Below are positions 23,173-26,414 of a DNA stretch of 53,903 bases, one piece after another; position 1 is the stretch's first letter; every line of letters starts with the position of its first letter. The DNA lies in assembly GCA_021793215.1 (NCBI GenBank), contig JAJYTE010000015.1, forward strand, positions 1 through 53,903, given 5' to 3'. The notes under the pieces were generated by a model. That model searched no databases, was not told the DNA's origin, and was given only the letters and a program-made list of their open reading frames with translations. Both the position numbers and the translations under genes were made by a program. This stretch comes from Bacillota bacterium. Its GTDB lineage: Bacteria; Bacillota; Sulfobacillia; JAJZYS01; JAJYTV01.

Positions 23173-25803
23173 CTATCGCATCAGGCGACCGAGTGCGGCC
23201 ACGACCTCCGCGCGTTCGCCGACGACGCGCCGCGCATCCGGCAACGCGTCGAGGAGGTAGCGGCCGTAACGCGCCGTCACGAGCCTGCGATCGAGGATCA
23301 GCACGGCGCCCTGGTCCGTGCTGGAGCGAATCAGGCGACCGAAGCCTTGCTTCAGCCGCAGCGCGGCGTCGGGCAGGCTGAGTTCCTGGAAGCTCGAGCG
23401 CCCCTCGGCTTCCAGCGCGGCGTAACGCGCCTCCCAGACCGGGCGGTCGGGCGGCTGGAAGGGCAACTTGACGAGCACGACGAGCGAGAGCGCGTCGCCC
23501 ACGACGTCCACTCCCTCCCAGAAGCTCTGCGCGCCGAAGACGACCACCTTCGGCTCGCGGCGCAGTGCCTCGACGAGGCGGCTGCGCGGGCCGTCGACGC
23601 CCTGGGCCAAGAGGCGCAGGCCCATCTCCCGCAAGGGGTCTCGCAGGGCGTCCGCGAAGGCCCGCAGCTGGCGGTGCGCCGTGAAGAGCACGAGGCCGCG
23701 GCCGCCCGCCAGACGCAGCGCGTCGAGCAGCAGGCGCTGCGCCTCTTCGTCGAAGGAAGGGTCCTTCGGTTCCGGCAGGTCGTTCGGGACCAGCAGCGTG
23801 CACTGATCGCGGAAGAAGAAGGGCGTCGGCAGGCTGACGGTGTGCACGCGGTCGTCCCCGCGCAGTCCGATCGCCTCGAGAAGGTAGTCGAAGGAGTCGC
23901 CGACCGCCAGGGTCGCCGACGTGAGGATGCAAGCGGTGAGCTTCTGGAAGAGGAGCTGCTGCAGCAACTCACCCGGGTAGAGCGGCGCGAGGTGGAGGCT
24001 GCCGTCCTGGCGGTCTGACCAGTCGAGCCAGGCGACGCGCCCCTGATCGGAGAGCAGGGCGTCGCTGATCAGCGACGCGGAGCGGCGCGCGGCTTCGCCC
24101 AGCGCGCGCAGCTCCACCTGCAGGCGCTCTCCGCCCGAAAGCGCGCCGTCGTCCCCCCTGGCTGCGAGCTCGCGCAGCGCGGCCGTCAGGTTCGCGAAGG
24201 CCGTTCGCACCGTCTGGGACTCGTGCGAGGACAGGAAGTCGGGGCTGAGGCGAGCGCTGCGCCGACCTGGAAAGCGGCTGTGGGCCGCGGCGAAGGCGGC
24301 CGAAGCGGCCGACTGCACGCTGCGGGCCGCCTCCGCGAGGGCAGGCGCTCCCGAGAGCGCCGCAGCGCGCTGCGCCAGTCGGCGGGCGTCGCGCTGCGAG
24401 AAGTCTCCGCCCAGGTGGTCGGTCGCGGCGGCATCGAGGCCGTGCGCCTCGTCGAGCACGAGGCGGTCGTACTCCGGCAGCACTCCCCCACCGCCGGCGG
24501 CATCCTCGAGCAGCAGCGCGTGGTTCACGACGAGCACATGGGCGCTTTCTGCGCGCCGCCGCGCCGCGAAGAAGTAGCAATCGTGGTAGAGCGCGCAGCG
24601 ATCACCGCTGCACGTGTCCGCGGTCGCCTCGAGCCGCGACCAGAGGTCTCCGTCGATGCGGGTCTCGGCGCGGTCCCCGCTGCCGGTCGCGTCCAGCCAA
24701 ACGGCGATGCGCGCGAGCTGCAGACGGTCGTCGCCCGGCAGGAGGGCGAGCGCCTGCGCCACCTCTCCCTGCCAGCGCCAAAGGCAGAGGTAGTTCTGCC
24801 GTCCTTTGAGCAGCTGGGCGCGCACGGGCCAGCCCGTCGCCTGCACGAGCGCCGGGAGGTCCTTCTCCAGCAGCTGCTCCTGCAGGTTCTTCGTTCCGGT
24901 GGAGACGACGACGCGGGACTCCTCGCGCAGCGCCCAGGCCATCGCCGGAAGGAGGTAGGCGAGGCTCTTGCCGGTTCCGGTCGGAGCCTCCGCGACCAGG
25001 AAGCCCCCCTCCTCCAGCACCTCCTCGACGCGCTCGAGGAGTTCGCGCTGGCTCTCCCGCTCCTCGAGCTGGAGGCTAGAGATCAAACCCTCGGGCGAGA
25101 GCGCGGCGGAGGCGTCGATCGGCATGCGCAGCTCGCCTGCCGGCGGAAACGACATCAGAGGTCTGGCCGGCTGCCACGGCGGCGATTCGGGCGCCGCGGC
25201 GTCGGCTGCGCGCAAGAGTTCGGCGAGACTGCCCGGGACGCCTTCGACGAGCTGACCGATGAAGTGCAAGAGCGCTGGATTCGTGCCGCGCAAGGTCTCG
25301 CGTAGGCGCGCCAAGAGGAGGGCCGTGACGCGCGCGTCCTCCCGCGCGCGGTGGTGGCGGAACTCGAACTCGAACTGGCGGGCGGCCGCCGCCAGCCCGT
25401 GGCTCTCCTGCATGGGGTACAGGAGGCGGTAGAGATCGAGCGTGTCGAGGTCTGGGTGCGCCTCCGGCCAGCCCTGAGCGCGCAGGAAGCCGAGGTCGAA
25501 GGGCGCGTTGTGCGTAACGAGGAGGTCCTGTCCGACGAACGCGAGGAGTCCCGCGATCGCGTCCGAAATCTCCGCCTGCCCCCGCACCATCTCGTTCGTG
25601 ATGCCCGTCAGCTCGCGGATGAAGGGCGGGATCACACGGTGGGGATCGACGAGCGCGTTCCACTCGGCGACGACCTCGCCGCCCTCAAAGCGCGCTGCGC
25701 CGATTTCGATGATCGCGTCGCTGTACGCGTTCGATCCCGTCGTCTCGAGGTCTACCGCGACGAAGGGCGCGTCAAGCGCCGACGTCGCACCGGTTGACGT
25801 AAT
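23173..25803 (-). CDS. dinG: DinG-type exonuclease-helicase with Fe-S cluster
   Basis: The protein combines an N-terminal DEDD 3'-5' exonuclease (about residues 14-190) with an XPD/DinG superfamily 2 helicase. Visible are VAVDLETTG (metal Asp and Glu), HNAPFDLGF, HHRAREDARV, Walker A APTGTGKS, the DEAH box (DEAHGLD), and cysteines C-x4-C-x5-C, the spacing of the E. coli DinG iron-sulfur site, with a further Cys in NYLCLW. The exonuclease needs codons upstream of the first usual start (GTG, 25635): similarity runs back to a stop at 25810 with no ATG, GTG or TTG. ATT at 25803, behind GGGAGGTGATC, is the best start and gives 876 residues. It overlaps the histidine phosphatase gene by 32 bases. 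Confidence 0.88.
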   Translation of the reverse strand: MTSTGATSALDAPFVAVDLETTGSNAYSDAIIEIGAARFEGGEVVAEWNALVDPHRVIPPFIRELTGITNEMVRGQAEISDAIAGLLAFVGQDLLVTHNAPFDLGFLRAQGWPEAHPDLDTLDLYRLLYPMQESHGLAAAARQFEFEFRHHRAREDARVTALLLARLRETLRGTNPALLHFIGQLVEGVPGSLAELLRAADAAAPESPPWQPARPLMSFPPAGELRMPIDASAALSPEGLISSLQLEERESQRELLERVEEVLEEGGFLVAEAPTGTGKSLAYLLPAMAWALREESRVVVSTGTKNLQEQLLEKDLPALVQATGWPVRAQLLKGRQNYLCLWRWQGEVAQALALLPGDDRLQLARIAVWLDATGSGDRAETRIDGDLWSRLEATADTCSGDRCALYHDCYFFAARRRAESAHVLVVNHALLLEDAAGGGGVLPEYDRLVLDEAHGLDAAATDHLGGDFSQRDARRLAQRAAALSGAPALAEAARSVQSAASAAFAAAHSRFPGRRSARLSPDFLSSHESQTVRTAFANLTAALRELAARGDDGALSGGERLQVELRALGEAARRSASLISDALLSDQGRVAWLDWSDRQDGSLHLAPLYPGELLQQLLFQKLTACILTSATLAVGDSFDYLLEAIGLRGDDRVHTVSLPTPFFFRDQCTLLVPNDLPEPKDPSFDEEAQRLLLDALRLAGGRGLVLFTAHRQLRAFADALRDPLREMGLRLLAQGVDGPRSRLVEALRREPKVVVFGAQSFWEGVDVVGDALSLVVLVKLPFQPPDRPVWEARYAALEAEGRSSFQELSLPDAALRLKQGFGRLIRSSTDQGAVLILDRRLVTARYGRYLLDALPDARRVVGERAEVVAALGRLMR

Positions 25804-26377
25804 GGGCGATCACCTCCCCACGCGGCGTGAACTCGACCAGTGATACACTCGCGTTGTAGATCACGAAGCGGATCCGCGGCCAGCCGGTCATGCCGAGAAG
25901 TGCCTGCAGGCCAGCCGCGATCGTACCGCCGTGACAGACGACCGCGACGGGACCGGGTCCGCTCGCGGCGATCTCGCGCAGGGCCGCATCGACCCGCAGG
26001 CGGAGGTCGTCGTACGATTCGCCGCCGGGGGGCCTTGCGGCCCTGGGAGTGCGCCGCAGTTCCTCCTCCACCTGCGGGTGCCGGCGGGCGGCCTCGATCC
26101 GCGTCGTTCCCTGGTAGACGCCCCAGTTACGCTCCATGAGGCGAGGATCCGCCTGCACCGTGAGCCCCGCGGCGGCGGCCAGCGGCTGCGCTGTTTGCAT
26201 GGCGCGCCTCAGCGGACTCGCGTAGACCGCCCGCAGCCGCACGCCGCGAAGCCGCCCAACGAGGCCGCCGGCCTGGGCCACCCCCGTCTCGTCCAGCGGC
26301 ACGTCCTCGGTCCCTTGGATGCGCTCCTCTTTGTTCCAGGCGGTCTGTCCGTGACGGATGAGGTAGAGTTCTGCCAA
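25772..26377 (-). CDS. Histidine phosphatase (phosphoglycerate-mutase-like)
   Basis: This 201-residue enzyme belongs to the histidine phosphatase superfamily. LIRHGQTAWN near the N-terminus holds the phosphorylated His, ASPLRRAMQTA the second Arg, MERNWGVYQG the acidic residue and CHGGTIAAG the second catalytic His. Cofactor-dependent mutases are longer, so a phosphatase (PhoE-, CobC- or GpgP-like) is more likely. TTG at 26377 has AGGAG eight bases upstream; the frame extends to 26662 but overlaps the divergent comB gene. It is 37 bases from comB and overlaps the dinG-type gene at its 3' end. Confidence 0.85.
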   Translation of the reverse strand: MAELYLIRHGQTAWNKEERIQGTEDVPLDETGVAQAGGLVGRLRGVRLRAVYASPLRRAMQTAQPLAAAAGLTVQADPRLMERNWGVYQGTTRIEAARRHPQVEEELRRTPRAARPPGGESYDDLRLRVDAALREIAASGPGPVAVVCHGGTIAAGLQALLGMTGWPRIRFVIYNASVSLVEFTPRGEVIAHYVNRCDVGA

Positions 26378-26414
26378 TCGTCTTCTCCTCCCTGCGCTGC
26401 AAAGGAGCGTGATC

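Follow-up and report, generated by a model that had tools for sequence, protein, structure and literature searches.

Where does translation of dinG begin when its reading frame offers no canonical start codon ahead of the metal-binding motif of its exonuclease domain? The locus lies in a stretch of 53,903 nucleotides (the window), and a first-pass annotation made from the letters alone had proposed that the gene starts at ATT, behind a near-complete match to the complement of the 16S rRNA anti-SD. The features that bear on this proposal are collected in Table 1.

Table 1. Features around the start of dinG, in positions of the window
Feature	Position	Strand	Remarks
dinG	23173..25803	-	N-terminal DEDDh-type exonuclease and FeS-type SF2 helicase; 876 aa counted from ATT
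ATT, proposed dinG start codon	25801..25803	-	sole near-cognate codon kept in 10/10 family genomes from the upstream stop to the exonuclease core
TGA closing the dinG frame upstream of ATT	25810..25812	-	sequence
GTG, first in-frame canonical codon, rejected as start	25633..25635	-	within the RNase_T domain; not conserved among the relatives
CTT (Leu10 of DinG)	25774..25776	-	overlaps GCT TGA of the phosphatase gene; near the usual start site of most other DinG families
RNase_T exonuclease domain	25315..25761	-	PF00929, E 8.4e-31, 108 bits, profile 1-163 of 164
Extended Shine-Dalgarno GGGAGGTGATC	25808..25818	-	GGAGG at 25817-25813, nine bases before ATT; duplex with the anti-SD predicted at -21.5 kcal/mol
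Histidine-phosphatase (branch 1) gene, TTG start	25772..26377	-	PF00300, E 1e-59; sequence; overlaps dinG by 32 bp

The dinG frame and the signals in front of it

On the minus strand the dinG frame reads TGA (25812-25810) TCG CCC ATT (25803-25801) ACG TCA ACC GGT GCG ACG TCG GCG CTT (25776), continuing GAC GCG CCC TTC GTC GCG GTA GAC CTC GAG, and, as the first-pass annotation had stated, it contains no ATG, GTG or TTG until GTG 25635, which is residue 57 counted from ATT. The further statement that the DLE motif lies upstream of this GTG also holds, and a start there would cost ~42 RNase_T residues including the metal-binding D-x-E; standard gene finders miss AUU, AUC and AUA starts, and with them the motif would drop out of the annotation. 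The claim that exonuclease similarity reaches up to the stop stands in part: similarity does extend above GTG 25635, but homology at the family level to other DinG proteins starts ~10-13 residues past ATT and not at ATT itself.

The protein has the Pfam domains RNase_T, DEAD (PF00270) and Helicase_C_2 (PF13307), and the features of ExoDinG proteins are present, namely an N-terminal 3'-5' exonuclease domain with D-x-E (DLE and HHRAxEDA motifs) and an SF2 helicase core with Walker A (APTGTGKS) and DEAH. PRK08074 is its top-scoring NCBIfam family, at 602 bits and under the equivalog cut-off of 789, with TIGR01407 also among the best and below its cut-off; as judged by the PRK08074 model, this DinG is a divergent relative.

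The first-pass reading of the ribosome-binding signal was borne out in both its spacing to ATT and its sequence, GGGAGGTGATC differing from AGGAGGTGATC by one base. A 16S gene was sought in this draft genome in order to read the anti-SD directly and none was found, so the anti-SD was taken to be the standard one. On that assumption, the SD-like sequences found at the same place before dinG in all ten genomes of the family (see below) are predicted to pair with it more strongly in genus g1 (-17 to -22 kcal/mol) than in genus g2 (-10.6 to -13.2 kcal/mol), where they read GGGAGGG and GGAAGGG. The near-cognate dinG start is accordingly preceded by a strong signal in g1 and a moderate one in g2, with proper spacing in both. 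Local RNA folding of the ten start regions gave no common structure and no consistently open site.

Both ATT and its Shine-Dalgarno sequence sit within the 3' end of the histidine-phosphatase gene. In the phosphatase frame, ATT arises from CAT and the T of the next Tyr or Phe codon; it owes its presence solely to the choice of CAT for this His in the overlapping gene. The phosphatase adjoins dinG in the family as well as in the sister family f4, where dinG likewise starts inside it; in the genome G027 the two genes are adjacent. On its other side, the phosphatase TTG (26377) is separated by a gap of ~31 bases (26378-26408) from a divergently oriented 2-phosphosulfolactate phosphatase-like gene (PF04029, GTG 26409).

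Conservation of ATT and of the codons around it

Of 15 genomes of the order, ten are members of one family of uncultured bacteria: the present genome, three more from its genus and six from a second genus. dinG is present in all ten, with ATT at exactly the same place in each, so that the proposed start is supported by the homologues from both genera. No canonical start occurs between ATT and the exonuclease core in any of the ten, and none of the other near-cognate codons between the upstream stop and the core is conserved among them. The next canonical codons after ATT are scattered across the family, at residues 17, 32, 44, 51, 52 and 57, all of them within the exonuclease motif or adjoining it. 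Furthermore, an in-frame TGA or TAA lies just upstream of ATT in nine of the ten genomes, and in these nine ATT is thus not conserved as an internal dinG codon; in the tenth, G002, the stop is absent and a GTG lies 15 codons upstream of ATT.

The protein encoded just downstream is clearly constrained. The DinG proteins of the family all share Leu10-Asp11 and the exonuclease motif without variation, and over the 48 dinG codons from Leu10 the pairwise differences at the three codon positions number 342/368/911, which is the pattern expected of a translated, conserved protein. Because this constraint runs from Leu10 onward, the start lies at or upstream of CTT 25776. CTT itself is found at 25774-25776 in every family genome, although GCT makes up 4-8% of Ala codons; the rare Ala codon before the phosphatase stop would be there because the dinG frame needs its invariant Leu10 codon. 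At this point of the window one gene's codon fixes the other's, the first two bases of CTT being the end of GCT.

The His codon that creates ATT is CAT in all ten genomes, and elsewhere CAT accounts for ~27% of His codons (43/160 in the dinG genes of the family). Indeed, none of the 33 other invariant His columns (10 in dinG, 19 in the PolC-type gene, three in infC and one in the phosphatase) is CAT throughout, and of about 188 further invariant columns with two-fold pyrimidine codons, one has T in every genome. Four-fold identity between family genomes is 0.35-0.66, the near-identical pair G008/G009 apart, so most genome pairs are near saturation at third positions and shared ancestry alone does not explain the uniform CAT. 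A rough estimate of the neutral chance of this uniformity, counting eight nearly independent lineages, is 0.27^8, or about 3e-5. A start codon would be the natural reason for the conservation of ATT, which is partly shared with the overlapping gene, as the Shine-Dalgarno sequence and ATT also encode the tail of the phosphatase.

Outside the family the arrangement changes. The sister family f4 has CAC for this His, and its dinG starts at an ATG a few codons further downstream. The f4 loci (L013, L014 and L015) carry a GGAGGTG-like sequence ~22 bases before this ATG, clear in L013 and L015; being too far away for normal use, it suggests that dinG initiation in f4 occurs mainly by coupling to the phosphatase. 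Among 38 other exonuclease-DinG loci, two belong to family members and have ATT, one (L052) was left out because a contig edge truncates the match, and each of the 35 assessable loci outside the family has a plausibly spaced canonical start. Two of the loci, L115 and L117, were considered as further non-canonical starts and rejected, both having an ATG at a plausible distance. It thus appears that the ATT start of dinG arose within this family.

Other accounts of the start region

The possibility, raised together with the ATT proposal, that an assembly or sequencing error hides an ATG, GTG or TTG deserves mention because the draft assembly consists of 87 contigs, but the same ATT and the same missing canonical start recur in nine other genomes from two genera, which excludes it for practical purposes. 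Translation from GTG 25635 would make use of the first canonical in-frame start and yield a protein whose exonuclease domain is truncated, yet it is exceedingly improbable: the ~42 domain residues with D-x-E would be lost, the codons upstream are under protein constraint, and the GTG is not conserved, the first canonical codons of the relatives falling at the other five residues listed above. Initiation could alternatively take place at CTT 25776, by re-initiation after the phosphatase stop. This codon aligns with the usual DinG start and is invariant in the family; nevertheless, it has two mismatches to ATG and no Shine-Dalgarno sequence at a usable distance, and since a start there would leave the conserved ATT and its Shine-Dalgarno sequence unexplained, we give it only a slim chance.

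A different route to the exonuclease domain would be +1 frameshifting where the phosphatase frame ends (GCT TGA C), producing a phosphatase-DinG fusion protein. A C after UGA makes for a weak stop, and GCT TGA is invariant in the ten genomes, but the invariance of GCT is accounted for by the dinG Leu codon CTT. Judging by base pairing, tRNA-Ala on GCU would re-pair poorly with CUU, and there is no close stimulatory Shine-Dalgarno sequence as in RF2, the one present lying ~38 bases before the phosphatase stop, so that both the re-pairing slippery codon and the close upstream Shine-Dalgarno sequence of RF2-type +1 frameshifting are missing. As dinG of the sister family starts separately, at an ATG, and as a fusion would leave ATT unexplained, we regard frameshifting as highly unlikely. 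Finally, CAT may be conserved for some other reason, such as chance, RNA structure or phosphatase codon usage, with the true start unrecognised. The region does overlap another gene, and the sample is small at ten genomes; against this stand the roughly estimated neutral expectation of ~3e-5 at near-saturated synonymous sites, the absence of any other conserved near-cognate codon in the interval and the absence of a common RNA fold, and such an explanation seems very unlikely to us.

Proposed initiation from AUU, a probable role of IF3, and related genes

Taking these comparisons together, we consider it very likely that dinG is translated from AUU with fMet, by means of the extended Shine-Dalgarno sequence in the phosphatase gene, and with a yield held low by IF3 proofreading. 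AUU (25803) would be read by initiator fMet-tRNA, giving the N-terminus (f)MTSTGATSALDAPFVAVDLETTGSNAYSDAIIEIGAAR, with the Shine-Dalgarno sequence setting this codon in the ribosomal P site. As a near-cognate start, AUU would be subject to IF3 proofreading, which would keep the amount of DinG low, and this amount should climb when IF3 activity drops, as for infC. Access to the site is probably also coupled to ribosome passage and termination on the phosphatase, since the dinG start site sits inside another coding sequence. High IF3 also lowers re-initiation in E. coli (PMC2268962), and for this reason phosphatase coupling and the near-cognate start would act on dinG in the same direction.

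Known AUU-, AUC- or AUA-starting bacterial genes beyond infC are few. Like dinG, infC, with its AUU, AUC or AUA starts, has a near-cognate start after a strong extended Shine-Dalgarno sequence; however, infC is autoregulated by its own product, whereas DinG is not an initiation factor and the dinG start lies inside another gene. Binns and Masters reportedly found in 2002 that the AUU start of E. coli pcnB, the gene for poly(A) polymerase I, limits production. The resemblance to the proposed dinG start is that AUU limits an enzyme of RNA metabolism; pcnB differs in encoding an unrelated protein in another phylum. Streptomyces sigR has a conserved GTC start behind the extended ribosome-binding site AGGAGGTG and documented repression by IF3 (PMC5472188); its start is GTC rather than ATT, its product is a sigma factor, and IF3 control is experimental there and inferred for dinG. 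In S. aureus, cvfC1 (AUU) and ccpN (AUA) have conserved near-cognate starts with extended Shine-Dalgarno motifs and yield ~10% of the AUG level in poor medium, and initiation there was demonstrated by Ribo-Ret (PMC13009471); unlike dinG, cvfC1 opens its operon and is not embedded in an upstream coding sequence. The dinG AUU is a well-supported addition to this small class (infC, pcnB, sigR, cvfC1 and ccpN), and not a new mechanism.

The ExoDinG proteins of S. aureus, B. subtilis and Listeria share the architecture of an N-terminal exonuclease and an SF2 helicase (PMC11981726, PMC12345164, PMC12774634), and such relatives differ from the dinG of this family in the canonical starts seen in all 35 assessable genes checked. 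Literature on dinG start codons was sought, two of the ExoDinG papers included, and no mention was found. Listeria DinG is a 3'-5' exoribonuclease that removes unprocessed or immature rRNA (PMC12774634). If a Listeria-like role holds, the clean-up of ribosomes would be tied to the status of initiation by a start codon that an initiation factor senses, which is speculative. We offer as a rather doubtful idea that DinG, acting in rRNA quality control, is wired to ribosome status through AUU: when there is little free IF3 for the 30S subunits present, DinG synthesis would rise with IF3, and removal of defective rRNA would be matched to ribosome load. Given the rRNA role of the Listeria protein, control of DinG by an initiation factor would allow a direct test of whether initiation fidelity is linked to the quality control of ribosomes. 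More generally, codon uniformity in an overlapping gene may serve as a simple comparative test for hidden start codons.

The comparison with infC made in the first-pass annotation proved apt. In this genome and its relatives, infC has GGAGGTGA followed by 6 nt and ATC, that is, the same extended Shine-Dalgarno layout and the same nine-base gap as dinG, and the ATC stands behind CGGAGGTGACGTCG, with a predicted pairing of -15.4 kcal/mol. At this infC locus (G000 contig C13:29958-29974, plus strand; L045 and L163) the short open frame has no usable canonical start. The window holds one close copy of the whole string of Shine-Dalgarno sequence and ATT, where 0.07 would be expected. Scanning the genome for GGAGGTGA, which represents the strongest Shine-Dalgarno type only, followed by 4-8 nt and ATA, ATC or ATT gave 14 sites versus 2 for the reversed control pattern, and two of the 14, infC and dinG, are clear gene starts without a canonical alternative. 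Together, an AUU kept across the family on a nuclease-helicase gene and an infC AUC with the same layout point to a wider set of candidate IF3-repressed genes. An aquaporin-like gene (L166, G000 contig C36:12093-12107, minus strand) reads GGAGGTGAACAC-ATC-GAC-GTG, where either ATC or the GTG two codons further on could be the start.
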